Assembly: GCA_001800245.1 (NCBI GenBank)
Contig: MGVA01000007.1
Coordinates: 1-64,000 of the forward strand
Source: Elusimicrobia bacterium RIFOXYA12_FULL_51_18
GTDB lineage: Bacteria; Elusimicrobiota; Elusimicrobia; Elusimicrobiales; UBA9959
Direction of reading: 5' to 3'
Length of the DNA stretch: 64,000 nucleotides
The position numbers and the translations under genes are program-made. The notes under the pieces are model-generated. The model worked only from the letters and a program-made list of their open reading frames with translations, ran no database searches and was not told the origin of the DNA. Shown one piece after another: positions 9,520 through 58,858 of this stretch; the first letter of the stretch is position 1; every line of letters begins with the position of its first letter.

Positions 9520-9528
9520 AAATTCCTC

Positions 9529-10275
9529 CTATTTTTCGCCTTTATAAACGCCGAGCGGGAAGACTTTCATCATGTCGTCATTGACATATTTGGTGGCTTC
9601 CGACGGGTTATCCAGTCTCGTCCCCCAGTTGGTCGGGCACATTGAGAGTATCTCCACCATGGAGAAGCCCTTGCCGTCTATCTGGGTCTGGAAGGCTTTT
9701 TTGAGGGCGGCTTTGGTCTTGAGAACGCCCGGCGCCGTGTGCACCGAGGTGCGCTCAAGATAGGTGGAACCGTCTATGGTTGCCAGCAGCTCGCACATTC
9801 GTATAGGATAACCGGCCTGCTTGGCCGTGCGGCCCTCCACGCATGTGGTGGCTTTCTGGCCGATAAGCGTGGTGGGGGCCATCTGGCCGCCGGTCATGCC
9901 GTAGATGGCGTTATTGACGAAAATGACAGTGATGTTCTCGGAGCGGATAGCCGCGTGCACGATCTCGGCCATGCCGATGGAGGCCAGGTCGCCGTCGCCC
10001 TGGTAGGAGAACACTATGGCGCCGGGCTTGCAGCGCTTGATGCCGGTGGCCTCGGCCGGGCCGCGGCCGTGCGGGCCCTGGATCATATCGCAGTTGAAGT
10101 AAGTGTCGGCGAAGACGGCGCAGCCCACGGGGGCTATGCCGATGGTGCGCTCGCGGATATTAAGCTCGTCCATCACTTCGGCCGTCAGGCGGTGGATTAT
10201 ACCGTGGCCGCAGCCGGGGCAGTAATGCATGGGCACATCTACTAAAGATTCCGGTCTCTTATTTAGCAACTGCAT
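9529..10275 (-). CDS. vorA: 2-oxoacid:ferredoxin oxidoreductase, TPP-binding beta subunit
   Basis: A 248-residue thiamine diphosphate-binding chain. It shows the cluster motif YCPGCGHG near the N-terminus, a second cysteine in APVGCAVF, and the TPP/Mg motif GDGDLASIG followed by NNAIYGMTGGQ. The ORF track begins at an upstream TTG; the ATG at 10275 has AAGGAGCC in place and gives the usual family start (MQLLNKRPES). The gene overlaps the end of the alpha subunit by 17 bases, indicating translational coupling. It works with the alpha and gamma chains and the ferredoxin-like delta chain encoded in the same operon. Confidence 0.9.
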   Translation of the reverse strand: MQLLNKRPESLVDVPMHYCPGCGHGIIHRLTAEVMDELNIRERTIGIAPVGCAVFADTYFNCDMIQGPHGRGPAEATGIKRCKPGAIVFSYQGDGDLASIGMAEIVHAAIRSENITVIFVNNAIYGMTGGQMAPTTLIGQKATTCVEGRTAKQAGYPIRMCELLATIDGSTYLERTSVHTAPGVLKTKAALKKAFQTQIDGKGFSMVEILSMCPTNWGTRLDNPSEATKYVNDDMMKVFPLGVYKGEK

Positions 10276-11347
10276 ATTCTTTGGCTCCTTTTTTAACAAT
10301 GCGCTCAAGGGTCGTATAGACCTCTTCAGCCGTCATTACCGAAGCGCCGGGCTTGGCGTGCAGGTTGACCTGCGCCGCGCCGTTTATGGAAAGCTGTACA
10401 TCTTCCACCATTTGGCCGAGACTCATTTCGACCACCAGGAATTTCTTTATGCGGTTGGAAAGTTCGGCCAGGCGGTTCTTCGGGAACGGCCACAGGGTGA
10501 TAGGCCTGAAGAGGCCGACCTTTATGCCGCGTTCCCGGGCCAGCTTCATGGCAGCCACCGAAACCCTGGCCGAGGTGCCGTAAGCTACCATGGCTATTTC
10601 GGCGTCCTCCAGCATTTTTTCCTCGTACATAATCTCGTTCTTTTCTATTTCTTTGTAGCGTTTTACCCGTTCAAGGACCATTTTTTCCAGGTAGCCTTCG
10701 CGCAGGTCGTAAGATTTAACGATGCGCTTGGCGCGGCCGTTGTTGATGCCCAGCGCCCAGTCGGGTTCCACGAGGTTCTTGGGATCTACTTCCGGGGCTG
10801 TGAATTCTACGGGTTCCATCATCTGTCCTATGATCCCGTCCGCTAGCACCATGGCAGGGAGACGGTATTTGCAGGCCACCTCGAAACACTTGTGCGGGAA
10901 GTTGGCCATCTCATTTACGCCGTTGGGAGCCATTACGAAAGTCCGGTAGTCCCCATGGCCGCCGCCGCGGGTGGCCTGCCAGTAGTCGCCCTGCGCGCCG
11001 GCGATATTGCCGAGGCCCGGGCCTCCGCGCATCACGTTGGCGATCAGCAGCGGCAGGTCGGCGCCGGCGCAGTAGGACAGGCCTTCCTGCTTCAGGCTGA
11101 CTCCGGGGCTTGAGGAGGAGGTCATGCAGCGCACACCTGTGGCGGCGGCGCCGTAGATCATGTTTATGGCCGAGACTTCCGATTCGGCTTGTACGAAGGC
11201 GCCGCCGACAGCGGGCATGCGCCAGGACATATATTCGGGCACTTCGTTCTGCGGGGTAATAGGATAACCCGCGAAAAATCTGCATCCGGCTTTGATCGCG
11301 CCTTCCGCAAGCGCCTCATTGCCTTTCATTAATTTCTTTTCCGCCAT
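10259..11347 (-). CDS. vorB: 2-oxoacid:ferredoxin oxidoreductase, alpha subunit
   Basis: A 362-residue alpha chain (pyruvate:ferredoxin oxidoreductase domains I and II). The N-terminus KGNEALAEGAIKAGCRFFAGYPITPQ, the SSSSPGVSLKQEG segment and the MRGGPGLGNIAGAQGDYWQ segment are typical of the VOR/KOR alpha family. The start has AAGGAGCC at correct spacing. It lies 64 bases downstream of the ferredoxin gene, with a 45-bp repeat in the gap that recurs in the same position in the 14-24 kb operon. The acyl-CoA and reduced ferredoxin it makes would feed energy metabolism. Confidence 0.9.
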   Translation of the reverse strand: MAEKKLMKGNEALAEGAIKAGCRFFAGYPITPQNEVPEYMSWRMPAVGGAFVQAESEVSAINMIYGAAATGVRCMTSSSSPGVSLKQEGLSYCAGADLPLLIANVMRGGPGLGNIAGAQGDYWQATRGGGHGDYRTFVMAPNGVNEMANFPHKCFEVACKYRLPAMVLADGIIGQMMEPVEFTAPEVDPKNLVEPDWALGINNGRAKRIVKSYDLREGYLEKMVLERVKRYKEIEKNEIMYEEKMLEDAEIAMVAYGTSARVSVAAMKLARERGIKVGLFRPITLWPFPKNRLAELSNRIKKFLVVEMSLGQMVEDVQLSINGAAQVNLHAKPGASVMTAEEVYTTLERIVKKGAKEYAVAK

Positions 11348-11924: not shown

Positions 11925-12284
11925 TTAGATCATTTTTAAAAGCTTTTTTGCGGCGTCTATAAGGGCGGCGGGATTGACTGGTTTTTTTAGAACTACCACG
12001 TTCAGGTTTTTGGCGAGGCCGGCCACGCTTTCCGGAGCGCCGGTGGAGAATATTATGGGTGTTGGGGTCAATAGAAGATTCCGAAGGCGGTCGAATACTT
12101 TCTGTCCCCCGCCCGCCGGCATCTCTACGTCCAGTATTATAAGGTCGGGTTTTACTTCCTGGAACTTTGCCATTGCGCCGCTGGCGTCTTCGGCTGTTTG
12201 GATCTCAAAGCCGGCTTTAGTGAAAATTTCAGTGTAGAGTTCCAGTATGCAGGCATCGTCGTCAACCGCCAGTATTTTGGGCAT
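11925..12284 (-). CDS. Stand-alone response regulator receiver domain
   Basis: About 119 residues consisting only of a CheY-like receiver domain. It shows the acidic pair in AVDDDA, the phospho-acceptor Asp in LIILDVEMP, the Ser/Thr switch in FSTGAP and the Lys in LKKPVN. The ATG at 12284 begins the usual MPKILAVDDD; the ORF track uses a TTG 14 codons upstream that lacks a ribosome site (neither start has a strong one). No output domain and no kinase nearby, so it probably works by protein-protein contact. The TTAA-type repeat lies directly upstream. Confidence 0.85.
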   Translation of the reverse strand: MPKILAVDDDACILELYTEIFTKAGFEIQTAEDASGAMAKFQEVKPDLIILDVEMPAGGGQKVFDRLRNLLLTPTPIIFSTGAPESVAGLAKNLNVVVLKKPVNPAALIDAAKKLLKMI

Positions 12285-12347
12285 AAATATTTCGGAGAAT
12301 AACTTTGTTATTGCCGTATAGTCCAAATGCCAGGCAGGGGGGCAGTC

Positions 12348-12481
12348 TTAACCTGAAAAATTCAGTTGAATTTTTCCCTTCGCGGAGCTCAGGCCCTTAT
12401 ACGGCACCTACGCAGGTATTGCTTTTTTTGTTCACAGGATCTTCCAATGGAAACCAATTTGAACTGCAGGATTCGGGTTAA
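12348..12481. repeat. TTAA-type mobile repeat, short copy
   Basis: A 134-bp unit bounded by TTAA on both sides, with an imperfect terminal inverted repeat (TTAACCTGAA..CAGTT against TTAACCCGAA..CAGTT read inward). It matches the two outer parts of the copy at 4934-5166 without a visible mismatch but lacks that copy's 99-bp insert. No coding capacity. Confidence 0.85.
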
Positions 12482-12525
12482 GATTCAGTACGGACTCCCG
12501 GAGGGCGTATAATAATGGTCCCCCG

Positions 12526-13719
12526 TCAGTCGGAAGATACCTTCAAAATTCTATTATAGAACTTTTCCAGTTGTATGTTCATGCTTTCGGCGCTGAACCG
12601 GGTGTGGCCGGTGAAATCTTTTTCCATCACCCATAGGCGGGCGGCCTCGCCCATGCGTTCCCGAAGGCGGGCATCCCTGATCATTGACTCAAGAGCCGCG
12701 GCCAGCGCGCCGGGGTCGCCGGGAGGGACCAGGAGGCCGGTGACCCCCTCCTTTACCATGTCCGGGAGCCCGCATACTTTTGACGCCACTACCGGCAGTT
12801 TCATGTATTGAGCCTCAAGGACGGTGCGGCCCATGGCTTCGTTCAGGGAAGGCTGCACATAGATGTCGGTTGCGGCCAGGTATTTGAAGACATCGCGCTG
12901 GAAGCCGGTGAAAATTATTTTTCCCCACAGGCCAAGCCCGGCGGCTAAATTGATCAGTTTGGCGCCGAGAGAGCCATCCCCCACCACCAGGTAACGCAAT
13001 TTTTTGTCCAAGTTCCGGGCTTGCAATTGCGCGGCGGCACGTATGAAGTATTCCACGCCTTTGACCGGTTCTAGCCTTGCCACCACGGCGATGACTATTT
13101 CATCTTTTGGGATATCCAGGCCGCGCTTGGCGTGTTCATAGGGTCTGTCGCTGAACCGTACTCCGCTGTGGATAACCAGCCACTTGGCGGCGGTTCCCAG
13201 CCCCTGTTGCAGGGATTCGCGCCGCTCTCCCTCGGTCAGAGCGATAAAGTGGTCCGTTACGCGGGCGGTAAACTTCTCCAGCAGTTTGAAGATAAATGTT
13301 TTCAGCGGCCCGAAGTAGCCGTAAAAGACGTGGCCGTGCGGCGTGTGCACTATAATAATCCGTTCCGGCCCGGACTTGAAGTTATAAAGCCAGGCCGCCC
13401 AGCGTCCCAGTATCCCCGCCTTGGCCGTGTGTGTATGTACGATGGCCGGCTTGAGCGTGGCAATTATTTTTCCGAGTTCCAGAAAAGAGAGTAGATCTTT
13501 TAACGGGGATATTTCCCGGACAAGGTTTTTTATCTCCAAATATTTGGCATTTCCCGGCAGGGCGAGCGTCAATTGTTCCTCTCCCTTATGAGGTCCGGCG
13601 AGCAGGACGACTTTATAAGCCCCGGCCTGGTAAACCGCGGAATCTATCACGTTCCGGGCCGAGCCGCCGGGCTCAAGCCGCGTGATGATGTGTATGATAA
13701 GGTTGTTGGGGTAGTTCAA
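12526..13719 (-). CDS. GT4-family glycosyltransferase
   Basis: A 397-residue retaining glycosyltransferase of the GT-B fold. The N-terminal domain has the donor/acceptor entry motif ITRLEPGGSARNV and the C-terminal domain has VVARLEPVKGVEYFIRA, the E-x7-E box in NEAMGRTVLEA, and VCGLPDMVKEGVTGLLVPPGD. It probably adds a sugar to a lipid or polysaccharide precursor at the cytoplasmic membrane; donor and acceptor are unknown. The start is TTG with AAGGA eight bases upstream; no ATG is available in the conserved N-terminal region. It stands alone, without other sugar-polymer genes. Confidence 0.87.
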   Translation of the reverse strand: MNYPNNLIIHIITRLEPGGSARNVIDSAVYQAGAYKVVLLAGPHKGEEQLTLALPGNAKYLEIKNLVREISPLKDLLSFLELGKIIATLKPAIVHTHTAKAGILGRWAAWLYNFKSGPERIIIVHTPHGHVFYGYFGPLKTFIFKLLEKFTARVTDHFIALTEGERRESLQQGLGTAAKWLVIHSGVRFSDRPYEHAKRGLDIPKDEIVIAVVARLEPVKGVEYFIRAAAQLQARNLDKKLRYLVVGDGSLGAKLINLAAGLGLWGKIIFTGFQRDVFKYLAATDIYVQPSLNEAMGRTVLEAQYMKLPVVASKVCGLPDMVKEGVTGLLVPPGDPGALAAALESMIRDARLRERMGEAARLWVMEKDFTGHTRFSAESMNIQLEKFYNRILKVSSD

Positions 13720-13780
13720 TTTTTTATTCGTCCTTGGTTGGTTCAGGGAGATTTACTTCGGCCGGTCCGAGGCCGCTTTT

Positions 13781-14059
13781 TTAGTTTAATGAACGCGGCG
13801 TTCTTCCGTTTTTTTCTTCCCTGATGCGGCCCAGTTCCGTTTCGGCGGCGGCCAGTTTTTACCGCGCGGCCTTAAGTCCCGGCGTGTAGTCGTCCGAAAT
13901 GTGGAAAGTTTCCCCTGTTCGTCCCAGGTTCAGCGTCTTTAGGAGTTCTTCGGAACGCCAGGCTATCTCAGGGGGCTTGCGTATATCCAGAGGGGCAATA
14001 TAGCGAATACCGCCTTCGCTTTGCGAGTCCTTATCCCCCTGAGTACAGGGGCGAGATGA
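13781..14059 (-). pseudogene. Decayed or incomplete reading frame downstream of the MoaD-like gene
   Basis: This minus-strand frame has no start codon (ATG, GTG or TTG) and one internal TAA at 13859. It reads ..GGIRYIAPLDIRKPPEIAWRSEELL.. and, after the TAA, KLAAAETELGRIREEKNGRTPRSLN. Codon choice looks protein-like and both halves are in one frame, so this looks like the remnant of a real gene rather than chance. I do not recognise the family. It overlaps the end of the MoaD/ThiS-like gene in another frame. Confidence 0.4.
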
Positions 14060-14277: not shown

Positions 14278-16116
14278 CTACGATAATTCAGCGTATTTCT
14301 CCGCGGCGGCCGCCTCGCTGGAAAGGCCGAGTTTCCCCAGAGTTTCCTTGGTGGGAATGCCGCGTTTGTCGTAGCCGCGCTGGTCGTAGTAATGCTGTAG
14401 CAGTTGGTCGTACTTGTCCACATCCAGGTATTTGCCGGCTATGGGGCCTTCCTTATCGGCATTGGCCGCGTCGAACCAGACGGCTGGCGGATAATCGCCC
14501 TTGCGCGTGGCGTTGGGGAATTCGCGGATGTAGTGCAGCTTTATCATGCTGTAGGCGCGGTCGGCCACTTTCCACATGTCGTCCAGCGTCCAGTTCAGGC
14601 CGGTAGCCAGGTTAAAATACTTCGGGTAATTGTCCAGTTTCCAGCCCAGTTCTATCCAGGGGAAGCGGCAGGCCACCATGAACTCGAACATGCCGCCGCG
14701 GATGCGCTGGAGTTCTATTACCTTTGCGGCTTTGTCCGCGCCGTAGGAATCGCGGGTGCTGTTCTTGAGTTCGAAGGTTATGATCCACGCTTCCTTGTGG
14801 TGCGCTCCCATGGGCCCCACTCCGAAAGACAGCGCCTGGCCGGGGATGTGCTTGCAGTTGTAGGCGGCTATATCAAGACCTTTTACCTGCAGGGCGTAAG
14901 CTTCGGAGCTATTACCGAATTCCTTCGCCATTCGCAGGGAGCCTTCGGCGAGGAGGTTTCCCACCTTCCCTTCGCGCCGAGCGGCCATGCCCAGCAGTTC
15001 CTTGCCCCGCTCGGCGTCGCCGAACTTGAAATCTCCTTTCGCGGCGCCGCGGGCGATAGCGTCGGCGTAAAAGCTTAACGTACAGCCGGCCGACATCGTG
15101 TCCATGCCGTATTCGTCGCAAAGGTAGTTCAGGGAACCCACCTGGTCGAGCTCGAAGATATTGAGGTTGGGACCCAGCAGCGCTACATTTTCGTAGTCGA
15201 GTTCGGATTCATGGCCTTCTTTGTCGTGGATGGTGATGCCGCACTTCATAGTGCAGCTGGGACAGCCGTAGGTGGCTACACGGGCGTTGTTGAGGCGTTC
15301 GCCGTCCACTTTCCAGGCGTCGGGATGGCTGGTCTTGCGGCAATTTTCCACGGGAAGGGCCGCGACTTCGTTGCACCAGGCAAGTACGCCGTTGGTGCTT
15401 TGTATGGACCAGCCGGATTTTTTATCCATTTCGTGTACAGTTTTCAGATCTCCGTAGCCCGCGGCTTTCATGGCCGCGGGATCGGCCTGCGGAATGATTT
15501 TGGTGCCTTTTACAACAATGGCTTTGAGGAGTTTGGAGCCCATGACCGCCCCTATGCCCGGGCGTCCTCCGGCGCGCCCTTCCATGCTGCGGATCACGGC
15601 GTAGCGCACCATGTTCTCTCCGGCCTGGCCGATGTTCAGGACGCCCACGTTCTTGCCGTACTTGGCGTAGATCCAGTCGTTGGAGAAATACGTGCCTTTT
15701 CCCCACATCTCTTCGGCGCTGAGAAACTCAACCTTGTCGTCCTCAATATAGAGCATTGTGGGCTTTTCGGCTTTGCCTTCCACTATCATGGCGTCATAGC
15801 CGGCTTTGCGCAGCTGGTCCGAGACCTTTGTGCCCAGGTTCCCGTCTCCGTAGAAGCCGGTCAGGGGCGACTTGGCCGCTACTATGCACTTGCCGGTATT
15901 GGGGGCCGGGATGCCGGAGATAGGGCCGAGAGCGACCACCAGTTTGTTTTCCGGGCCCAGCGGATCTATTCCGGGTTTGAGTTCATCGTACAGTATTTTC
16001 ACGGCGAAGCCGCGGCCGCCTACCCACTTCTGCGCGAATTCTTCGGTAAATGATTCTTTTTTATAAGTTTTAGAGGTCAGATTGACCCTGAGAATATTGC
16101 CTATCCATCCTTTCAT
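14278..16116 (-). CDS. aor: Tungsten-type aldehyde:ferredoxin oxidoreductase
   Basis: A 612-residue enzyme of the AOR family that interconverts aldehydes and carboxylates using ferredoxin and a tungsten bis-pyranopterin. The [4Fe-4S] ligands are visible as C285, C288 and C292 (GCPSCTMKC) and C483 (ACRFPW). The N-terminal KGWIGNILRVNLT and the GGRGFAVKILYDEL and RAGGRPGIGAVMGSK segments are family hallmarks. The start has AGGAGG at good spacing. It directly follows the saccharopine dehydrogenase gene, whose product is aminoadipate semialdehyde, so that aldehyde is the obvious candidate substrate; this is inference from context, as AOR enzymes differ widely in substrate range. Confidence 0.93.
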   Translation of the reverse strand: MKGWIGNILRVNLTSKTYKKESFTEEFAQKWVGGRGFAVKILYDELKPGIDPLGPENKLVVALGPISGIPAPNTGKCIVAAKSPLTGFYGDGNLGTKVSDQLRKAGYDAMIVEGKAEKPTMLYIEDDKVEFLSAEEMWGKGTYFSNDWIYAKYGKNVGVLNIGQAGENMVRYAVIRSMEGRAGGRPGIGAVMGSKLLKAIVVKGTKIIPQADPAAMKAAGYGDLKTVHEMDKKSGWSIQSTNGVLAWCNEVAALPVENCRKTSHPDAWKVDGERLNNARVATYGCPSCTMKCGITIHDKEGHESELDYENVALLGPNLNIFELDQVGSLNYLCDEYGMDTMSAGCTLSFYADAIARGAAKGDFKFGDAERGKELLGMAARREGKVGNLLAEGSLRMAKEFGNSSEAYALQVKGLDIAAYNCKHIPGQALSFGVGPMGAHHKEAWIITFELKNSTRDSYGADKAAKVIELQRIRGGMFEFMVACRFPWIELGWKLDNYPKYFNLATGLNWTLDDMWKVADRAYSMIKLHYIREFPNATRKGDYPPAVWFDAANADKEGPIAGKYLDVDKYDQLLQHYYDQRGYDKRGIPTKETLGKLGLSSEAAAAEKYAELS

Positions 16117-33897: not shown

Positions 33898-34710
33898 TTA
33901 AAACATATAGTGAGTTCCATAGGTATCGGTCCAGAATCCATTCCCATAAGGGTTAAGTTCATAGTAAGTCGCCTGACTTCCCATACTTGCGCCGTTTTTG
34001 TAGATAAATCGGTACTCGTCGGTCCATACTATGTCTCCGGTGCGCGCGGCTATTGTGAAGTTGACCGCGCGGCCGCCCAGATTCATTCCGTTTTTGTATA
34101 TAAACCTGTATTGATCGGTCCATGCCACATCGCCGGTAAAATCTGCGAGTGCGTATGAAACGACCCGGCTGCCCAAGGAAGCGGTGTTCTTGTAGATGTA
34201 TCCGTTCTGGTCGGTCCATACTACGTCGCCGGTAACACTGGCGATCGCATAGGAAGTTGCCCGGCTGCCCAGGCTTGCCGTATTCTTGTATATGTATCCG
34301 TTCCGGTCGGTCCAGGCTACATCGTTGGTATAATTGGAGAGTATATAGGAAGCGACCCGGCCGCCTAACTGCATGGTATTCTTAAAGAGACAACCGCTTT
34401 TGTCCAACCAAGCCACGTCGCCGGCGCAGTTCGTAATAAATGACACGGCGCGGGAACCAATGCGCACCCCGTTTTTATAGATATCGCCGAAGTTGTCAAG
34501 ATAGACTATCGGTTTGGGACAGTAATCCGGTTCGGGGGTGTTCGCCTGCCCCGCGTTTTTTTGTTCCAGGGTGCTTCTTACCATTACCGGCGCCGGGAGG
34601 TCTAAAGTGCTCTGATTTTTTATATCGGCAACTTTTACACCGTTAATATCCGTTGCATATAGATTGGCCGATAAAACAAAAGTTAAAAAAGTATATACGG
34701 TCGCTTTCAT
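33898..34710 (-). CDS. Secreted protein with tandem 32-residue repeats
   Basis: A 270-residue exported protein. The ORF track starts too early; the ATG at 34710 has GGAGG six bases upstream and begins a signal peptide (MKATVYTFLTFVLSANLYA). From about residue 75 it consists of some six 32-residue repeats of the type SYAIASVTGDVVWTDQNGYIYKNTASLGSR. Each repeat has the core GDVAWTD..G.IYKN..SLGSR, resembling small WD-like or propeller blades. I do not recognise a named family. The regular length suggests a closed beta-propeller or solenoid used for binding. Confidence 0.8.
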   Translation of the reverse strand: MKATVYTFLTFVLSANLYATDINGVKVADIKNQSTLDLPAPVMVRSTLEQKNAGQANTPEPDYCPKPIVYLDNFGDIYKNGVRIGSRAVSFITNCAGDVAWLDKSGCLFKNTMQLGGRVASYILSNYTNDVAWTDRNGYIYKNTASLGSRATSYAIASVTGDVVWTDQNGYIYKNTASLGSRVVSYALADFTGDVAWTDQYRFIYKNGMNLGGRAVNFTIAARTGDIVWTDEYRFIYKNGASMGSQATYYELNPYGNGFWTDTYGTHYMF

Positions 34711-34838
34711 TTTCAACCTCCGTAGAATAACTGGTTTGTATATTTTATATTTATATACCTTATAATTACAGGGTCCTAAGGGTAACGCGCCCATAGGTCT
34801 TTTGCCGCACGGCTGTCTAAGAAAATTGGCGGGCGGCG

Positions 34839-34886
34839 GGCTGCAAGTTCGGGGTCCTGCCAGCCATGGGGCCCATCGGGAACGCC
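34839..34886 (+). repeat. Dispersed hairpin repeat, partial copy 5
   Basis: GGCTGCAAGTTCGGGGTCCTG is the head of the family seen at 2.9, 53.5, 55.2 and 56.8 kb; the copy then differs and is cut short by the mntP-like gene. It contains the short palindrome ATGGGGCCCAT. Confidence 0.6.
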
Positions 34887-34901
34887 GCTTTCTCATTTTT
34901 A

Positions 34902-35560: not shown

Positions 35561-35590
35561 TTGACAAACTCCGGGGTTTTGTCATATATT
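35561..35590 (+). promoter_or_regulatory. Possible promoter of the Ehr operon
   Basis: TTGACA at 35561 is followed after 18 bases by TATATT (35585-35590). The same region can form the imperfect stem TTGACAAAC/GTTTTGTCA. The predicted leader is about 120 bases. Confidence 0.55.
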
Positions 35591-35718: not shown

Positions 35719-37686
35719 ATGCTTTTCTCCGTCGTTTCCGTCGTCGTTCTATTATTTAGCGCGCTTCTGGCGCTCATTTTTAACCGCAGCGCCCTGAAAA
35801 CTTCGGCCGTTGGAGCTTCAGGAGCTGTGATCGCATCCCTTACGGGTCTTATCCCGGTTGTTAAAACACTTATCGTTCCCGCCAGAGAAACCCTCTCCTT
35901 GCCCTGTTCTTTACCTGTCGGGTCTTTTAGTTTCGTCCTGGACCCGCTGGCCGCATTCTTTCTGGTTCCAGTTTTTATTCTTACCGCCGCCGCCGCGCTC
36001 TACGGGGTGGATTATCTCAAACAATTTGACGGCAAAAAACCGTTGGGTCTGGCTTGGGCCATGTTCAATGTCCTGAGCGCTTCTATGGTGGTTGTGATCC
36101 TGTCAGCCGATGCTGTCCCTTTCCTGATAGGATGGGAGGCGATGGCTGCGGCCTCGTTCGCGTTGGTGATCTTTGAGCACGAGAAGTCCCAGGTTCGCAA
36201 AGCCGGCATTATATATCTGGTCGCCGGCGGCGCCGGCGCGCTGTTTCTGCTGGCCATGTTCGCCCTGTTTGGCATAGGATCGGATTCGCTGGCTTTTTCA
36301 AGCTTTACCCGGCCGGCTGGCGGCCTGGCCTCCGTCGCTTTCCTGTGCGCTATAATGGGTTTCGGGCTGAAAGCCGGTTTTGTCCCGCTGCACATCTGGC
36401 TGCCGGAGGCGCATCCCGCTGCGCCCAGCCACGTCTCCGCCGTTATGAGCGGAGTGATGATAAAGATGGGCATATACGGTCTTATGCGTGCGCTCCATTT
36501 TCTGACCCCCTGGCAGCCGTGGTGGGGCTGGCTGTTGATAACCATCGGTGTGGTCTCGGGTCTGCTTGGCGTTATCTTTGCCCTGGCCCAGCATGATCTC
36601 AAACGCCTCCTGGCTTACTCCAGCATCGAGAACATAGGCATAATTACCCTTGGTCTGGGGATCGGGGTGCTGGGCGTTGTCAAAGCTATCTACCCGTTGG
36701 CGGCCCTTGGTTTTGCCGGCGCTCTTCTTCACGTAGTCAATCACGCCCTTTTTAAGGGGCTGCTTTTTATGGGCGCCGGCGCGGTTCTCCATGCCGCCGG
36801 CACTGCCGAGCTTGAGGCTTTGGGCGGGCTTTCAAAAAAAATGCCCCGTACCGCCGTCTATTTCCTTGTAGGCGCGGCAGCAATAGCGGGTCTGCCGCCG
36901 CTTAACGGTTTTGTAAGCGAGTTTTTTATCTGCTTCGGAGCTTTTACGGCTCTGCGGGCCCCGATCCAGACGGCCACTGGGGCCGTTCTGACGATAGCGG
37001 TCATGGCGGCCATTGGCACGCTGGCTTCCGCGTGTTTCGCCAAGGCTTTCGGCGCCGTTTTTTTGGGCAAATCGCGCTCATTAAAATGCGCGGCTGTTCA
37101 TGAGGCCGGGCCATGGATGGGTTTCGCCATGGGTGTATTAGCCGCCGCCTGCGTCTTCATCGGTTTCGCCTCGCCTTTGCTGGTAGCTCCGCTCTCCGCC
37201 GCTATCGCCTGTGGTTTCGGTCCCAGGCTGGGGCTTGAATTCAGCGCCGCCGCAGGCATCCCGCTTTTATATATCAGTGCCGGCGCTTTAACGCTGGCGG
37301 CGGTGCTGGCGCTTATAACCGTTTTTCGTAAATTTCTGCTCCGCGGGCGCAAGCCGGCCGCAGGGCCAACCTGGGATTGCGGCTACGCCGCCCCATCGGC
37401 CAGAATGCAATACGGCGCTTCATCCTTCGTACAACCGCTGACGGATTTTTTTCAGCCCATGCTGAGGACCCAACGCCATTATAGCGGGCTCAAAGGATTT
37501 TTCCCGGCCGGAGCGGATTTTCATACCGAGGCCAATTCCGTATTCTATAACCATCTCTATGCCCCGGCCGCGAATTTGATCAAGCGCCTGGCTTTCAGGT
37601 ATTCCTGGCTTCAGCACGGCCGCCTTCAGCTTTATATCCTCTACATAGTCGTGGCCCTCATCGCGCTGCTGGTGTGTAAATTATGA
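35719..37686 (+). CDS. HyfB-like ion-translocating membrane subunit (Mrp/NuoL type)
   Basis: A 655-residue membrane protein with about 15 helices, related to NuoL/NuoM and HyfB. It carries the lysine/histidine channel motifs of this superfamily: FLIGWEAMAAASFAL, GLKAGFVPLHIWLPEAHPAAPSHVSA, and LKRLLAYSSIENIGII. It should move protons or sodium ions across the inner membrane, driven by the peripheral redox module encoded downstream. First gene of a six-gene operon; its stop overlaps the next start (ATGA). Confidence 0.9.
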   Translation: MLFSVVSVVVLLFSALLALIFNRSALKTSAVGASGAVIASLTGLIPVVKTLIVPARETLSLPCSLPVGSFSFVLDPLAAFFLVPVFILTAAAALYGVDYLKQFDGKKPLGLAWAMFNVLSASMVVVILSADAVPFLIGWEAMAAASFALVIFEHEKSQVRKAGIIYLVAGGAGALFLLAMFALFGIGSDSLAFSSFTRPAGGLASVAFLCAIMGFGLKAGFVPLHIWLPEAHPAAPSHVSAVMSGVMIKMGIYGLMRALHFLTPWQPWWGWLLITIGVVSGLLGVIFALAQHDLKRLLAYSSIENIGIITLGLGIGVLGVVKAIYPLAALGFAGALLHVVNHALFKGLLFMGAGAVLHAAGTAELEALGGLSKKMPRTAVYFLVGAAAIAGLPPLNGFVSEFFICFGAFTALRAPIQTATGAVLTIAVMAAIGTLASACFAKAFGAVFLGKSRSLKCAAVHEAGPWMGFAMGVLAAACVFIGFASPLLVAPLSAAIACGFGPRLGLEFSAAAGIPLLYISAGALTLAAVLALITVFRKFLLRGRKPAAGPTWDCGYAAPSARMQYGASSFVQPLTDFFQPMLRTQRHYSGLKGFFPAGADFHTEANSVFYNHLYAPAANLIKRLAFRYSWLQHGRLQLYILYIVVALIALLVCKL

Positions 37687-38591
37687 AAGTTGTCGCACAA
37701 TATCTGATGGTCCTGACGCTCTCTCCCCTGCTGCTGGGCGTCATAAACCGCGTCAAAGCTTTCTTCGGAGGCAGGAAAGGGATTCCCCTTTTTCAACTTT
37801 ACCGCGACCTGTTCAAGTTGTTGCATAAGACTCCGGTCTACAGCCGCAGCACCACCTGGTTGTTCAGGGCCGGTCCTATCGTAGGGTTGGGGGCGGTGTT
37901 ATGCGCGCTCGCCATCGTTCCTTTCTCCGGCAGACACTCCTTCCTTGCCTTCGACGGTGACCTCATCCTGATGGTGTATTTACTGGGGCTGGCCCGCTTC
38001 GCCACCGTGCTGGCCGCCCTGGATACGGGATCCAGTTTCGAGGATATGGGCGCCAGCCGCGAGGTTCAGTTCGCGGTGTTCGCGGAGCCGGCTTTCTTCC
38101 TGGCCCTGGCGGCTTTGGCCCGGGGCACGGGACAACTTTCGCTGTCGGCCATGTTCGCCGGCCTCACGCCCGCCGTCTGGCAGAGCGCGGCCTCCGTACT
38201 GGCGCTTGTTACTGCCGCCCTGTTTATAGTTTTTCTGGCAGAGAACTCGCGCGTGCCGGTGGATGATCCCAATACTCACCTTGAGCTGACAATGATACAT
38301 GAAGTGATGGCGCTGGACCACAGCGGTCCGGACCTGGCTTTCATTCTTTACGGCGCGGCTTTAAAGCTGTGGGCATTGGGCGCGCTCATCTCCTGCGCGG
38401 TCCTCCCCAGGCATTCCGCTTCCTGGTTTGTGGATTCTGGACGGTTCATCCTTATGATGTTCGTCCTGGCCGCGGCTGTGGGAGTACTGGAATCCATAAT
38501 AGCCAGACTGCGGTTCTTGAAGGTGCCTTACCTGCTGTTCACGGCTTTCTCGTTCTCGGTATTAGCATTGATGTTTCAGGCGGCGAGATAG
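37683..38591 (+). CDS. HyfC/NuoH-like membrane anchor subunit
   Basis: A 302-residue membrane protein with eight or so helices, equivalent to HycD/HyfC and NuoH. Diagnostic segments are FGGRKGIPLFQLYRDLFKLLHK near the N-terminus, SSFEDMGASREVQFAVFAEP in the middle and ENSRVPVDDPNTHLELTMIHEVM. In complex I and group 4 hydrogenases this subunit connects the redox arm to the ion channels. Starts in an ATGA overlap with the HyfB-like gene. Confidence 0.92.
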   Translation: MKVVAQYLMVLTLSPLLLGVINRVKAFFGGRKGIPLFQLYRDLFKLLHKTPVYSRSTTWLFRAGPIVGLGAVLCALAIVPFSGRHSFLAFDGDLILMVYLLGLARFATVLAALDTGSSFEDMGASREVQFAVFAEPAFFLALAALARGTGQLSLSAMFAGLTPAVWQSAASVLALVTAALFIVFLAENSRVPVDDPNTHLELTMIHEVMALDHSGPDLAFILYGAALKLWALGALISCAVLPRHSASWFVDSGRFILMMFVLAAAVGVLESIIARLRFLKVPYLLFTAFSFSVLALMFQAAR

Positions 38592-38632
38592 AGGAGCATT
38601 TGAGGCGCTAAGGGTAGGCAAGAGATCTAACC

Positions 38633-39310
38633 ATGCATACTACTACGGCTGAACTTATAATAGTGGCTATAATACTTCTGGACCTGTCCTTGGCGGTTTC
38701 CGGGTCTTTGGCGGCCTGTATACGGCTTGCGGCCGCGCAGGGAGTCATTGCGGCTATTCTGCCGCTCCTGGCGGGTTCAGGCGCCCCGGAAAGCCGGGCC
38801 ATAATATTTTCCTCGACGGTCATTTTGCTCAAGGGCGTTATCTTCCCGTGGTTGCTGACCAGGGCCCGCGTGAAGGCCAACGCGCGCAAGGATGTTGAGC
38901 CATTCATCGGCTATCCCGCTTCCATAATCCTGTGTCTCGGCGCGTTTGCCGCGGCTTCATGGCTTGGCACCCGCCTGCCCCTGCCTGAGACTACCCGCGT
39001 GGCCTGGATAGTGCCGGCGTCGCTGGCCACCATCTTTACCGGTTTCCTGCTTATCACCACACGCGCCAAGGCTATCACACAGGTATTGGGCTACCTGGTC
39101 ATAGAGAACGGTATCTATGTTTTCGGTTTGGCACTGTTCGTGGAACAGCCGCTGATGGTGGAGCTGGCCATACTCCTGGATATCTTTGTGGCGGTGTTCG
39201 TTATGGGCATCACGATCTTCCATATCAGCCGCGAATTCGACCACATCGACACCGACGAACTCTCGCAGTTGAGCGACTGGCATCCGCAGCGGGACGGTGA
39301 GGCGGAATGA
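38633..39310 (+). CDS. HyfE-like membrane subunit (NuoK-related)
   Basis: A 225-residue protein with about six helices, similar to HyfE, which combines a NuoK-like core (ITQVLGYLVIENGIYVFGLAL) with additional N-terminal helices. The VIENGIY glutamate corresponds to the conserved NuoK glutamate in the membrane. The spacer after the HyfC-like gene is 41 bases; the end overlaps the next gene by four bases. Confidence 0.88.
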   Translation: MHTTTAELIIVAIILLDLSLAVSGSLAACIRLAAAQGVIAAILPLLAGSGAPESRAIIFSSTVILLKGVIFPWLLTRARVKANARKDVEPFIGYPASIILCLGAFAAASWLGTRLPLPETTRVAWIVPASLATIFTGFLLITTRAKAITQVLGYLVIENGIYVFGLALFVEQPLMVELAILLDIFVAVFVMGITIFHISREFDHIDTDELSQLSDWHPQRDGEAE

Positions 39311-40779
39311 TAATTCTCCTGATGCTGGTTCCGTTGCTGGCCGGTTTATCGGCCTTCCTTATTTCGGACGACGGGCGCAGGCGCGGTTTACTTGTCTCCG
39401 CTTCCGCTCTGCACCTTGCCCTCACCATTTTAGTTTTTGTCGCGAGGCCGGAAATAATCCCGGGCGACTGGTTCGGTCTGGACGCTTTGGGCCTCCTGTT
39501 CCTGGGTATAACCTCGGTCTTGTTCTTCGGCGCGTCGGTTTACGCGGTCAAATACCTTTCGTTCGAGAAATACGATCCCGGCGAAGATTCAGATGAAGGC
39601 TTCATCTTTAACAACCAACCCGAAGCCGTGTTCATCGGCTGCCTTTTATTGTTCCTGTCGGCCATGACGGCGGTCACGGTCAGCCGCCACCTCGGAATGC
39701 TCTGGGCCGCCGTGGAAGCCACGACGCTGCTGAGCGCGCCGCTCATTTATTTTCACCGCCATAAACGTTCGCTGGAGGCTACCTGGAAATACCTGCTCAT
39801 CTGTTCGGTTGGTATCGCCCTGGCATTGATGGGCAACCTGTTCCTTGGGGCGGCCGGTATCAAGGCAGGGGCGGGCCTGGATCTCGAATCTCTGCTGTCC
39901 AAGGCGGCGGCGCTGGATCCCGCCTGGGTTAAGGCCGCTTTTCTGTTCCTCTTTGTCGGCTACGGCACCAAGATGGGGCTGGCGCCTTTCCACACCTGGC
40001 TCCCCGACGCGCATAGCGAGTCTCCGGCCCTGGTTTCGGCTTTGCTTTCGGGCGCGCTTTTGAACTGCGCCTTCCTAGGCATCCTGCGCGCGGCTCAGGT
40101 TTGCGCGGGGGCGGGTCTGGCTGGGTTTACCGGGGACATATTTATACTCTTCGGTCTCCTGTCCCTTATGACTGCGGCATTGTTCATATTGGGCCAGAGG
40201 GATTATAAGCGCATGCTGGCTTATTCAAGCATAGAGCATATGGGCATACTTTCTCTGGGCGTCGGATTGGGAGGCGGGGCGGTGTATGGCGCGCTTTTGA
40301 ACTCCGTCGCGCATTCGCTGACCAAAGCCGGGCTCTTCTTTGTCTCAGGCGTGATCCTGGCAGCTTATAAGACCAAGCATATTTCAGAAGTTAAAGGCCT
40401 GTTCCGCCGCCTTCCCAAAACCGGTGTCCTATGGCTGGCCGGATTTTTCCTGATCACCGGCACACCGCCGTCCGGCATCTTCCTGGGTAAATTGATGATC
40501 CTTAAGGCAACTTTAGCGGGCGGGCATTATGTTGCGGCAGCTGCGTATCTTTTTTTCCTTGCGGTAGTTTTCGCCGGTCTGGGCCGTATTTTCCTGGAGA
40601 TGACTTTCGGAGAGGCGCCCCAGGCCGGGACCTCCGGTAAACTGCCGGGCGAATCCAGGCAAATGCTTATCCCCGCCGCATGTTTTTTCGTTTGCGTGAT
40701 CATCCTGGGCCTGTATATGCCCGGCTGGCTTAGCGACACCATTGCCGGTGCGCAGCGTCTGATTGGGGGCGCTGTATGA
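39307..40779 (+). CDS. HyfF-like ion-translocating membrane subunit (NuoL/M/N type)
   Basis: A 490-residue antiporter-like subunit with about 14 helices. Motifs: AAVEATTLLSAPLIYF, GYGTKMGLAPFHTWLPDAHSESPALVSALLSG and YKRMLAYSSIEHMGILSLG. Together with the HyfB-like subunit the complex has two antiporter modules, the composition typical of Hyf-type and Ehr complexes. Overlaps both neighbours by four bases, so stoichiometric expression is likely. Confidence 0.92.
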   Translation: MIILLMLVPLLAGLSAFLISDDGRRRGLLVSASALHLALTILVFVARPEIIPGDWFGLDALGLLFLGITSVLFFGASVYAVKYLSFEKYDPGEDSDEGFIFNNQPEAVFIGCLLLFLSAMTAVTVSRHLGMLWAAVEATTLLSAPLIYFHRHKRSLEATWKYLLICSVGIALALMGNLFLGAAGIKAGAGLDLESLLSKAAALDPAWVKAAFLFLFVGYGTKMGLAPFHTWLPDAHSESPALVSALLSGALLNCAFLGILRAAQVCAGAGLAGFTGDIFILFGLLSLMTAALFILGQRDYKRMLAYSSIEHMGILSLGVGLGGGAVYGALLNSVAHSLTKAGLFFVSGVILAAYKTKHISEVKGLFRRLPKTGVLWLAGFFLITGTPPSGIFLGKLMILKATLAGGHYVAAAAYLFFLAVVFAGLGRIFLEMTFGEAPQAGTSGKLPGESRQMLIPAACFFVCVIILGLYMPGWLSDTIAGAQRLIGGAV

Positions 40780-42260
40780 ACGGGCCGAAGTTATTGAATC
40801 ACCTGGAATCGTACGGGTTTGAGACTTTGGCGGCGCTCGATCCGGGCGTGTTTTACAGGGTCGCATCCGAACGCATTAGGGCCGGCGGCCGGGCGGTGGC
40901 CTATTTCGGCCTGCCTGAAGAAGGCGGCACTTGTCTCGTCCTGATACTGGGATTTGACTCCGAGCGCCGTCTGGAAGCCATGTCGGTTTCCGTAACGGAT
41001 TCTTTCCATTCGCTTACGTCCGAATTTCCCCAGCTGCACCTGTTCGAACGCGAGATCTCCGAACAGAACTGTCTTGAGGCCAAAGGCCATCCGTGGCTTA
41101 AGCCTGTCAGGTATCCGTTAAAGTCCGGTTCGCCGGTCGCGCCGGGCACGACAGATTTTTTTCAAGTCCACGGCAGTGAAACGCATGAAGTGGCCGTAGG
41201 TCCGGTGCACGCGGGTATAATAGAGCCGGGCCATTTCAGGTTCCAGTGCCACGGCGAACTGGTCTTCCACCTTGAGATAGCGCTCGGTTACCAGCACCGG
41301 GGCATAGAGCGCCGGTTGATCGGCGGCCCGGATAAATTGACCAGGCATTACATGGAAACCCTGGCCGGAGACACAACTATAGGACATGCGACGGCTTATT
41401 GCCGGGCCGTTGAAACCCTTTCAGACTCAAAAATCCCCCCCCGGGCGGAGATTTTGCGCGCCATCATGCTTGAACTTGAGCGGCTGGCCAACCACACGGG
41501 AGACCTGGGCGCTCTGGCCGGAGATGTGGCCTATCTGCCAACCGCCTCTTTTTGCGGCAGGTTGCGCGGCGATTTACTTAATATGACCGCCCTGATCTGC
41601 GGCAACCGTTTCGGCCGCAGCATGATTGTTCCGGGCGGGACGGCTTTCGACATCGACCCCGCCCTGGCAAAAGAATTAAAACTCAGGCTCGATGCTGCTT
41701 TCAAGGATGTGAAAAATGCCGCCGGCCTGCTGTGGAGCACTTCCTCGGTCATGGAACGCTTTGAGGGTACGGGGCTGGTTTCAAAAGAGACCGCAATAGC
41801 TTTGGGGCTGGTCGGGCCAGCCGCCAGAGCGTCCGGAGTGCGGCTGGATACCCGGCATAGTTTCCCGGTAGGCGCCTATAAGTTAAAAGCCGTTTTGCCC
41901 GCGGACGCACCGGAAAGCGGAGATGTTTACGCCAGGGCTTATATGCGCTGGCTTGAGATAAAGCGGTCCTATGAATTGATAAACGATTTTTTGTATTCTC
42001 TTCCCGGCGGCCCTATTTTTATTGAGCCGGGCGCAATGAGAGCGGAAAGATTTGTGGTATCCCTTAACGAAGGCTGGCGCGGCGAGATCTGCCACGTTGC
42101 GGTGACGGACGCGGAAGGCAGGTTTCGTTATTATAAGGTGAAGGACCCGTCGTTCAATAATTGGCAGGGACTGGCGATGGCGCTGCGCGGCGGCCAGATA
42201 TCTGATTTTCCGCTCTGTAATAAGAGCTTTAACCTCTCGTACTGCGGACATGATTTGTAG
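40776..42260 (+). CDS. Ehr-type hydrogenase-like large subunit lacking NiFe ligands
   Basis: A 494-residue fusion of a NuoC-like N-terminal domain (about 1-115) and a NuoD/hydrogenase-large-subunit domain (VGPVHAGIIEPGHFRF, LGYQHRGIERRL). In group 4 hydrogenases the L1 motif would follow as CGxC; here it reads METLAGDTTIGH (residues 194-205) with both cysteines missing. The C-terminal L2 motif DPCxxC is replaced by DFPLCNKSFNLSYCGHDL, with two cysteines nine residues apart that do not fit the ligand pattern. This matches the energy-converting hydrogenase-related (Ehr) complexes, which cannot carry a NiFe centre. The electron donor or acceptor is unknown; ferredoxin is plausible. Confidence 0.88.
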   Translation: MNGPKLLNHLESYGFETLAALDPGVFYRVASERIRAGGRAVAYFGLPEEGGTCLVLILGFDSERRLEAMSVSVTDSFHSLTSEFPQLHLFEREISEQNCLEAKGHPWLKPVRYPLKSGSPVAPGTTDFFQVHGSETHEVAVGPVHAGIIEPGHFRFQCHGELVFHLEIALGYQHRGIERRLIGGPDKLTRHYMETLAGDTTIGHATAYCRAVETLSDSKIPPRAEILRAIMLELERLANHTGDLGALAGDVAYLPTASFCGRLRGDLLNMTALICGNRFGRSMIVPGGTAFDIDPALAKELKLRLDAAFKDVKNAAGLLWSTSSVMERFEGTGLVSKETAIALGLVGPAARASGVRLDTRHSFPVGAYKLKAVLPADAPESGDVYARAYMRWLEIKRSYELINDFLYSLPGGPIFIEPGAMRAERFVVSLNEGWRGEICHVAVTDAEGRFRYYKVKDPSFNNWQGLAMALRGGQISDFPLCNKSFNLSYCGHDL

Positions 42261-42300
42261 CGAACGCGGCGGGAGGCGGCGCGGCGTTCTTAGGAAATTT

Positions 42301-43053
42301 ATGTTCAAAGCATTGATCGGAAGACTTAAGCAGGGGTATCGGACCATGGATTTCCCCTCGGCGGAGATAAAACTGCCGCCCCGGTTCCTCGGGATGCCGG
42401 GAATCCGTCACGCAGCCTGTAAAGGCGGCTGCGCTAAATGCGTCGGCGTCTGTCCGACCGGAGCCATCACCCTGCTTGCCGAAAAGCCGGTTCTGGATCT
42501 TGGGCGCTGCATTTTCTGCGGCAAATGCGCGGAGCTTTGCCCAGGGGTCTTTAAATTCAGCGGAGAATACCGGTTGGCCGCGCGCGAGCGGAAGGAATTA
42601 TTCCGAGGTGACGAAGTAGTGAAACGGACGCGGACGCTGGATTCGGAGATGAAAAGGATTTTTGGGCGCTCGCTGAAGCTAAGGCAGGTAAGCGCCGGAG
42701 GGTGCGGCGCGTGCGAGGCGGACTGTAACGTGCTTCAGACCCTTACTTATGATCTTGGGCGGTTCGGTGTCCAGTTTGTAGCCTCGCCCAGGCATGCCGA
42801 CGGGCTTTTGATAACCGGCCCGGTCACTCAAAATATGAAACTGGCGCTCCGGAAGACTTATGACGCGACTCCGACTCCGAAGATAGTTATAGCGGCGGGC
42901 GCATGCGCCATTTCCGGCGGCATTTACTCCGGGCATCCAGAGACCGCCGGCATCCCGGAAGAAATCCCTATTGACCTCTACCTGCCCGGCTGCCCGCCTC
43001 ACCCTCTTACTATCCTTGACGGAATACTTCGCCTTTTAGGCAGAATAGAATAA
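42301..43053 (+). CDS. Ferredoxin-NuoB fusion, small subunit of the Ehr-type complex
   Basis: About 250 residues. The N-terminal part has two [4Fe-4S] motifs (C40..C51 in CKGGCAKCVGVCP and C70..C80 in CIFCGKCAELCP), as in HyfH/NuoI. The C-terminal part is NuoB/HyfI-like with GCGACEADC (C135, C138), GPVT, GACAISGG (C202) and LPGCPPHP (C231), the ligands of the proximal cluster. HyfH and HyfI are normally separate, so this is a fusion. The start at 42301 has TAGGAAA; the ATG at 42250 used in the track lies inside the previous gene. No hydrogenase maturation genes follow. Confidence 0.88.
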   Translation: MFKALIGRLKQGYRTMDFPSAEIKLPPRFLGMPGIRHAACKGGCAKCVGVCPTGAITLLAEKPVLDLGRCIFCGKCAELCPGVFKFSGEYRLAARERKELFRGDEVVKRTRTLDSEMKRIFGRSLKLRQVSAGGCGACEADCNVLQTLTYDLGRFGVQFVASPRHADGLLITGPVTQNMKLALRKTYDATPTPKIVIAAGACAISGGIYSGHPETAGIPEEIPIDLYLPGCPPHPLTILDGILRLLGRIE

Positions 43054-56940: not shown

Positions 56941-58362
56941 TTATTCCAGGTCGAAGGTTTGGCCGAAGTCGGGGCAGACCGTTTGGGGGATCCCCTCCGC
57001 TTTGAGGGTTTCGGCGAAGGCGGCGCGGTCTTTGGGGTCGCCGTGTACCAGGAAGATCTTCCGGGGCGGGCGGCTCAGGCCTTTGACGAAGGCGAGCAGG
57101 TCGCCCTTGTCGGCGTGGGACGAGAAAAAATGCATGGTCTCTATCCTCGCGGCCACGTCGTGCTCAAGGCCGAAGATCCTTACCTTGTTCGCCCCGTCCT
57201 GGAGACGGCGGCCCAGGGTGCCTTGCGCCTGGTAGCCGACTATAAGGATCGTCGTATTTTCTTTATCAATATTATTGCGCAGATGATGCAGCACCCGGCC
57301 GCCCTCGCACATGCCCGAAGCGGAAATGATGATCATGGGGCCGTCCGTCTCATTTAGCGCCTGGGATTCTTCCTTGGTGCGGACATAATTAATGTAATCA
57401 AAGCCGAAAGGGTCGCCGTCCATTTCGGCATAGGCCTTGAAACGGTCGTCAAAAGCGAAAGTGTCCTTGTACTTATTGAACAGTTCCGTGATGCTGAGCG
57501 TCATGGGGCTGTCCACATATACCGGGATGTCCTGCGCGGCGCCGGAGCGGAGCATCTTGTCCAGAATGAGGATGATTTCCTGGGCGCGCTCAAGTGCGAA
57601 ACTCGGGATTATGACCTTTCCTTTCTCCGCTATAGCGCGTTTTATTACGGTTTCCAGTCGGGCTTCGGCGTCATCCACGGGTTCATGCAGCCTGTCGCCG
57701 TAGGTGGTTTCCATCACCAGGTAATCCACATCGCGCGGGATCTCGGGGCTGCGCATGAGGATGGATGCCCTGCGGCCCAGGTCTCCGCTATAAAGTACGC
57801 GGCGGCGTTCCGCGCCCACCGGCAAGTTCACAAGCACCATTGCGGATCCAAGCACATGGCCGGCGTTAAGGAACTTGGCGGAAATAGTCCCCCCCGCCAG
57901 GTGTGCTTCCGCGCCCGGATCGCAGGCCTTGAACTTGTTCAGCGCCAGTTTGGCGTCCTCTTCGGTGTAAAGCGGGTCTATGCGTATGCCTTCCGCTTGG
58001 TGGACCTTGTTGAAGAATTTTGCGTCGGCTTCCTGCAGGCGGGCCGAATCCATAAGCATAATGGAAGCCAGGTCTTTGGTCGCCGCGGTACAGTAAATGC
58101 CGGCCTTCAGGCCTTTCTTGGCGAGCAGGGGCAGGCCGCCGCAATGGTCGATGTGGGCGTGAGAGAGCAAGACGGCGTCCAGATCGGCGGGGCGCACCGG
58201 GAAAGACCTGTTCTTATCTATAGATTCCCGGCGGTGCCCCTGGAACATCCCGCAGTCCAGCAGGATCTTTTTGCCGTTCGCTTCAATGAGATGCCGCGAA
58301 CCGGTAACTTCCCCCGCCGCGCCGAAAAAACCGATCTTAGCGCCGCTTGTCGTTTCCGCCAT
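56941..58362 (-). CDS. Beta-CASP metallo-beta-lactamase-fold ribonuclease
   Basis: A 473-residue RNA-processing exonuclease/endonuclease of the CPSF73-like group. The zinc motif HAHIDHCG appears near residue 58-65, followed by further metal ligands in NAGHVLGSAM and YSGDLGR; the beta-CASP domain has METTYGDR, SFALERAQE, ISASGMCEGGR, and the RMMBL-type C-terminal VHGDPKDR. The start is the ATG at 58362 with GGAGG; the track ORF reads back into the GNAT gene. Overlaps that gene by 26 bases. Confidence 0.92.
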   Translation of the reverse strand: MAETTSGAKIGFFGAAGEVTGSRHLIEANGKKILLDCGMFQGHRRESIDKNRSFPVRPADLDAVLLSHAHIDHCGGLPLLAKKGLKAGIYCTAATKDLASIMLMDSARLQEADAKFFNKVHQAEGIRIDPLYTEEDAKLALNKFKACDPGAEAHLAGGTISAKFLNAGHVLGSAMVLVNLPVGAERRRVLYSGDLGRRASILMRSPEIPRDVDYLVMETTYGDRLHEPVDDAEARLETVIKRAIAEKGKVIIPSFALERAQEIILILDKMLRSGAAQDIPVYVDSPMTLSITELFNKYKDTFAFDDRFKAYAEMDGDPFGFDYINYVRTKEESQALNETDGPMIIISASGMCEGGRVLHHLRNNIDKENTTILIVGYQAQGTLGRRLQDGANKVRIFGLEHDVAARIETMHFFSSHADKGDLLAFVKGLSRPPRKIFLVHGDPKDRAAFAETLKAEGIPQTVCPDFGQTFDLE

Positions 58363-58858
58363 GTAGCCTCCGTTTTGATCCTGTGAAATCCGCAAGCGGG
58401 CCCTGGGTCTTGCGCAGCAATAGCTCGTCATGCCCTCTGACTATAAATTCTTTCAGCACCCCGGTCTTTCTGTAACCCAGTTTTCTGTAAAGGCGTTGCG
58501 CATCTTTATTGAAAGATGACACGCATATAAACACATTCGGGCTTTCCACGAAGATCCGCTTCTCGGCGAAGCGTACCAGCAGCGTGCCGATGCCGCGGCC
58601 ACGGGCGTTCGGGGCCACACAGACGGTCTGGATATAGCCCCTGAATGTCCCGGCCATTTGCAGGATTATAAATCCAACGGCTTTGCCGTTTTCTTTCGCG
58701 GCATAAACCTCGCGCAGCGGCGCGCTTACGGTTGTGAGGCAGGCGCGATAATCCCTGCCCAAGGTAAGCCAGGGCTTGGTTCCCGACATGAATCGCGCGC
58801 AGATTTTAAAATCCGCAAGTTTCCTGGTGGGGCTGATCCTGATATCCTTAATTTCCAT
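58337..58858 (-). CDS. GNAT acetyltransferase
   Basis: A 173-residue acetyltransferase with the acetyl-CoA loop VCVAPNARGRGIGTLLVRFAEKR and the later NKDAQRLYRKLGYRKTG motif. It resembles RimI-type N-acetyltransferases, but the target is unknown. Its end overlaps the start of the beta-CASP nuclease gene and it follows the phosphoglucomutase gene by 26 bases on the same strand, so all three may be one transcript. Confidence 0.88.
   Translation of the reverse strand: MEIKDIRISPTRKLADFKICARFMSGTKPWLTLGRDYRACLTTVSAPLREVYAAKENGKAVGFIILQMAGTFRGYIQTVCVAPNARGRGIGTLLVRFAEKRIFVESPNVFICVSSFNKDAQRLYRKLGYRKTGVLKEFIVRGHDELLLRKTQGPLADFTGSKRRLHGGNDKRR

Follow-up and report, generated by a model that had tools for sequence, protein, structure and literature searches.

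An Ehr-type operon of an Elusimicrobiota bacterium, predicted to encode a redox-driven ion pump lacking the NiFe site

We analyzed a 64,000-nucleotide stretch (the window) of contig MGVA01000007.1 from Elusimicrobia bacterium RIFOXYA12_FULL_51_18, an uncultured member of the phylum Elusimicrobiota in the same genus as GWA2_56_46. Its operon at 35719-43053 probably encodes an Ehr complex of six subunits that belongs to the complex I and group 4 hydrogenase superfamily and would couple redox chemistry to ion pumping; in place of the NiFe site it appears to have a conserved chamber of another kind, which has no Ni ligands. The complex, a descendant of H2-producing enzymes, is most likely a ferredoxin-linked redox pump. 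The subunits, the lost Ni ligands and quinone residues, the intact clusters and channels, the selective constraint and the independence from HypD can be read in the sequences; the direction of electron flow, the ion and the acceptor are inferred.

Organization of the operon

The operon consists of six open reading frames on the plus strand, whose neighbors overlap by a few bases or are separated by a 41 bp gap. Based on Pfam and NCBIfam, the encoded subunits were assigned, in this order, to the HyfB, HyfC, HyfE, HyfF and HyfG-like types and to a HyfH-HyfI fusion (Table 1). For the HyfB-type protein, the best NCBIfam match is hydrogenase 4 subunit B, with a score below the cut-off. Among solved structures, PDB matches place the large subunit (EhrL) nearest to E. 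coli HycE and Pyrococcus MbhL, and the small subunit (EhrS) nearest to MbhJ, HycG and HycF. The true start of EhrS is probably 42301 rather than 42250, because its relatives align from residue 18 and an AGGA precedes position 42301.

Table 1 Features of the operon and of the window
Feature	Positions	Strand	Basis or remark
2-oxoacid:ferredoxin oxidoreductase	8980-11347	opposite to operon	>19 kb from operon
AOR	14278-16116	opposite to operon	>19 kb from operon
Promoter-like site TTGACA-18-TATATT, 11/12	35561..35590	+	upstream of operon; such sites in the region are no commoner than chance
HyfB/EhrA-like antiporter-type subunit (NuoL/M family), 655 aa	35719..37686	+	Pfam Proton_antipo_M, E 4e-54
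HyfC/EhrB-like membrane anchor (NuoH family), 302 aa	37683..38591	+	Pfam NADHdh, E 6e-29; HyfC/NuoH alignment
HyfE/EhrC-like small membrane subunit, 225 aa	38633..39310	+	NCBIfam hydrogenase 4 membrane subunit, E 3e-18
HyfF/EhrD-like antiporter-type subunit, 490 aa	39307..40779	+	Pfam Proton_antipo_M, E 1e-48
EhrL, NuoC-like N-terminal domain and NuoD/hydrogenase large subunit, 494 aa, without Ni ligands	40776..42260	+	Pfam Complex1_49kDa match; alignments
Former L1 motif A197-G198-D199-T200, replacing CGxC	41364..41375	+	alignment
Former L2 motif NKSFNLSYCGHDL (residues 482-494), whose end coincides with the cleavage point of the hydrogenase protease	42219..42257	+	alignment
EhrS, 2x[4Fe-4S] ferredoxin domain fused to NuoB/HyfI-type small subunit	42250..43053	+	Pfam Oxidored_q6, Fer4_7

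The E. coli Hyf/Hyc system (7z0s) gave the best match to EhrL in both fold and sequence, and it shares the gene order and the hydrogenase-type CxxC of the small subunit. However, it has the Ni ligands and a C-terminal extension of the large subunit, as well as HyfA, HyfD (the third antiporter-like subunit) and HyfJ, none of which was found in the window's operon, and its ferredoxin subunit is here fused to the small subunit. The original prediction of all modules of a Hyf-like complex with two antiporter subunits thus holds for the antiporter types HyfB and HyfF, but "all modules" is overstated, since HyfA, HyfD and HyfJ are missing and a single protein combines HyfH with HyfI.

The residues of the proton channels and the Cys of the clusters are retained. 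Alignments showed that HyfB keeps all four proton-channel E/K residues (E140, K218, K249 and E401), while HyfF keeps E137, K222 and K395 and has N253 at the fourth position, where E. coli HyfF also carries Asn. EhrS contains all eight Cys of the ferredoxin domain and the four of the proximal cluster (C152, C155, C219 and C248, with hydrogenase-type CxxC spacing), and all of them are conserved in nearly all members of Ehr-A, the window's type. An extra Cys of EhrS, C159, was considered as a special residue and ruled out, as its position is not conserved.

Elsewhere in the window, a repeat protein with a recurring WTD..IYKN.A.LG unit (33898-34896) was recognized by eye, and positions 56941-58431 encode a beta-CASP ribonuclease, unusual in a bacterium, which scored 313 bits with the archaeal aCPSF1 model and 415 bits with the type VII Cas14 model, both below the cut-off.

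The former NiFe site and its maturation

EhrL was aligned with E. coli HycE/HyfG, P. furiosus MbhL and the true hydrogenase of its own genome. None of the four Ni-binding Cys is retained: RxCGxC of L1 has become TLAGDT (C1 = A197, C2 = T200), and DPCxxC(T)DR of L2 has become NLSYCGHDL-stop (C3 = S488, C4 = G491), which confirms the two motif replacements noted at the outset. C481 and C490 sit off the ligand positions. We then compared 23 Ehr sequences obtained by a whole-protein search and not chosen by their L1/L2 motifs (set A1). S488 and G491 are invariant among them, position 200 is T, S or A, and position 197 is mostly A or S, with Cys in three sequences; a Cys pair at L1 or L2 occurs in none of the 23. 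C158, C481 and C490 are nearly invariant in Ehr-A but not conserved through the whole Ehr family (variants A/S/P490, I481 and V/A158), and no Ni ligands were found elsewhere in the protein. Compared with the hydrogenases in the alignment, EhrL also lacks a C-terminal extension for the protease, ending at the position at which the maturation protease of hydrogenases cleaves. Complex I large subunits likewise end at this point.

No hyp gene is present at the operon locus, as had been noted from the window. This absence is, however, local and not genome-wide, since HypD, a pair of HycI-type proteases and three genuine NiFe hydrogenases are encoded elsewhere in the genome. One of these hydrogenases, on contig 64 (L062:1376-10884), is a true group 4 complex; it comprises about 11 genes, and its large subunit shows CGIC, DPCMSC and a C-terminal extension. 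No FeFe hydrogenase was detected in the genome. Among 295 genomes of the phylum, 58 carry Ehr-A, and HypD is missing from 21 of these (18 at least 90% complete, one at 100%), as against about four expected from incompleteness alone, estimated from the listed completeness values. The complex thus persists without NiFe maturation, which is an independent argument against a NiFe site. Altogether, the alignment and the genome survey support the view that the operon product lacks this site, and it is predicted not to make H2.

The near invariance of C158, C481 and C490 in Ehr-A might point to a cryptic hydrogenase, in which these residues, together with H/D residues, form an unusual metal site. We regard the chance of this as practically negligible: the Cys are lost in part of the family, no ligand set fits at L1/L2, and both the occurrence of Ehr in genomes without HypD and the missing protease extension speak against it.

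Family membership and selective constraint

The operon is a further member of the already known Ehr (Ech-hydrogenase-related) family, for which persistence without HypD is the new support. Ehr was named in Geobacter by Coppi (2005), as cited in PMC7894505 and PMC13194489; HydDB leaves it out of the hydrogenases (PMC5037454), and it has been described, with unknown function, in comammox Nitrospira (PMC10284858) and in cyanobacterial sister lineages (PMC6349859). EhrL has relatives in at least 563 loci from many phyla, among them loci of Nitrospina, and is 57-58% identical to Geobacter/Geomonas proteins. The 58 genomes of the phylum show 45-80% identity over most of EhrL, which, together with the hundreds of further loci, excludes chance. 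In a tree holding few reference hydrogenases and leaving out GSU0739-45, all Ehr sequences formed a single clade, separate from both group 4 hydrogenases and complex I, with 100/100 support. Ehr of Geobacter sulfurreducens (GSU0739-0745) resembles the operon in its NuoL-type, NuoH-type, HyfE-type, large and small subunits and in its lack of Ni ligands, but has EhrA-1 and EhrA-2 where the window's operon has one HyfB copy. Identity, monophyly, subunit set and lost ligands agree in placing the complex in the Ehr type, as originally proposed. A deeper sister clade, Ehr-B, has a small subunit without the ferredoxin domain, and ferredoxin may therefore not be the universal Ehr donor.

The survey also revealed variation in arrangement. 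One contig carries two tandem Ehr operons (L049:4810-6528 and 12264-13865), whose large subunits share 52% and 45% identity with EhrL of the window, and at five loci (L016, L032, L072, L096 and L131) the HyfF-type and EhrL frames lie in a single ORF of about 950-980 aa, possibly as natural fusions.

Comparison with the closest genome (L035) gave dN/dS values of 0.07-0.15 for the six genes, which are rough because synonymous sites are near saturation. Within EhrL, 18 of the 35 positions in the old active-site loops are invariant in set A1, against 38 of 321 elsewhere; none of 100,000 random sets gave a value as low, and 1 of 355 shifts did. The same test is biased in the named relatives (set A2), since motifs taken from these very loops had served to find them, and we relied on A1. 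The rebuilt site, as judged from these alignments, is strongly constrained. The Geobacter Ehr has been stated to be already nonfunctional (PMC13194489); conservation of the loops beyond the rest of EhrL argues against this statement. Our data likewise argue that Ehr complexes are not dead hydrogenases, as few parts of the protein are as conserved as the former active site, and the complex survives in genomes unable to build a NiFe site.

These findings also bear on a non-redox role, in which the complex would be an ion antiporter or pH-homeostasis module with a purely structural peripheral arm. The Mrp-like subunits would fit such a module, and a role in pH homeostasis has been suggested for Methylacidiphilum (PMC6688271). 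We nevertheless consider it very improbable, because the twelve cluster Cys are present in nearly all Ehr-A and conservation is highest in the chamber, which is not expected of a structural relic.

Proposed mechanism and electron partners

In the redox pump that we propose, reduced ferredoxin would dock on the N-terminal ferredoxin domain of EhrS, and electrons would travel through the two [4Fe-4S] clusters of this domain to the proximal cluster, which has four Cys. In a chamber formed by EhrL, EhrS and HyfC, they would then reduce a non-hydrogen acceptor, with protons supplied via E150, and this reduction would power H+ or Na+ transport by HyfC, HyfF and HyfB. Run in the opposite direction, the pump could yield reduced ferredoxin. 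E150 corresponds to the proton-relay Glu of MbhL (E21) and is present in 52/52 Ehr-A relatives and in 18/23 sequences of the wider set. The AlphaFold2 model of EhrL (pLDDT 84.6) has E. coli HycE (7z0s_E) as top fold match; as its active-site loops (142-151 and 490-494) were modelled with low confidence, we make no claim on the geometry of the pocket. On the donor side, the earlier suggestion that ferredoxin comes from the AOR or the 2-oxoacid oxidoreductase is plausible, with neither gene linked to the operon.

No conserved redox-partner gene was found in the operon or flanks of about 100 Ehr loci, which suggests a small diffusible or membrane acceptor; the flanking genes are unrelated, except for two kinds. 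Of the 50 named loci with enough upstream sequence, 35 have, close to the Ehr operon or immediately before it, a gene for a protein of about 235 aa with an N-terminal HTH_17 and a C-terminal PTS EIIA-2 domain (for example L038:2151-2933, L046:3389-4096 and L139:1505-2194). It is absent at the window's operon, and the literature searched contained no paper linking it with Ehr. In several Elusimicrobiota loci, an ArsR-family regulator is found near the operon (L046:2669-3022, L050:2127-2480 and L059:801-1136; 8 loci in the cluster). An early candidate for a partner gene, c124, was rejected, as by eye it looks like a leucyl-tRNA synthetase.

As a first guess, the acceptor could be a membrane quinone held by new residues, a reading to which we give somewhat less than an even chance. 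With kinship inside families ignored, cytochrome bd co-occurs with Ehr-A across the phylum (34/58 against 14/237 genomes) and within the window's family (21/27 against 7/19, p=0.007), which is a hint of a quinone link. Among the other markers, MenD matches are sub-threshold paralogues except in two genomes, MqnA/D occurs in about 20 genomes, and NuoF is nearly universal and hence uninformative. Complex I (NuoCD/Nqo4) resembles EhrL in its fold, the loss of the four Ni Cys and the end of the large subunit, but has an NADH module, a tandem CC and the quinone residues H38 and Y87, whereas the Ehr complex has a small-subunit CxxC, no NADH module, and I149 and G198 in place of H38 and Y87. A complex I-type quinone site is thus absent. 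No cytochrome bd, MqnA/D or true MenD was seen in the window's genome (assembly 90% complete), and the lack of both residues and genes speaks against a quinone link.

The proximal cluster allows a comparison with Pyrococcus MBS (6u8y), which is related to MBH, has no NiFe site and carries an ion-pumping arm. An MBS-like sulfur reductase would reduce polysulfide directly at the proximal [4Fe-4S] cluster, and the common superfamily, the lost Ni site and the lack of H38/Y87 in both complexes favor it (PMC7684303). In MBS, however, two of the four Ni Cys are still present, and the cluster is bound by only three Cys because a small-subunit loop is three residues shorter; an equivalent of E21 is also missing (PMC7684303). 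EhrL keeps none of the Ni Cys, and EhrS has hydrogenase-like CxxC spacing with all four cluster Cys, besides the E150 seen throughout the Ehr-A relatives, which makes sulfur reduction of this type quite improbable.

A further option is reverse operation, in which the ion gradient would lift electrons of quinol or some other donor to the level of ferredoxin, to be used in biosynthesis. The ferredoxin domain and both pump subunits are intact, and no Rnf/Nqr was found in the window's genome. Geobacter, Nitrospina and comammox Nitrospira need reduced ferredoxin. The occurrence of Ehr in these respiratory lineages (PMC10284858 for comammox Nitrospira) would also fit. However, the AOR and the 2-oxoacid oxidoreductase already reduce ferredoxin in the window's genome, so that an extra source is not obviously needed, and we regard this direction as unlikely here.

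Returning to the chamber itself, we tentatively raise the possibility, on balance a doubtful one, that Ehr represents a distinct third kind of catalytic chamber, neither a NiFe nor a complex I-type quinone site. Its pocket of E150, D199, N482, K483, S488 and Y489 (with C481/C490 in Ehr-A) would, across many phyla of bacteria, either reduce an unrecognised acceptor or push electrons uphill onto ferredoxin. Ehr complexes are widespread and conserved, presumably as ion pumps, and identifying their acceptor would supply a missing piece between hydrogenases, MBS and complex I.
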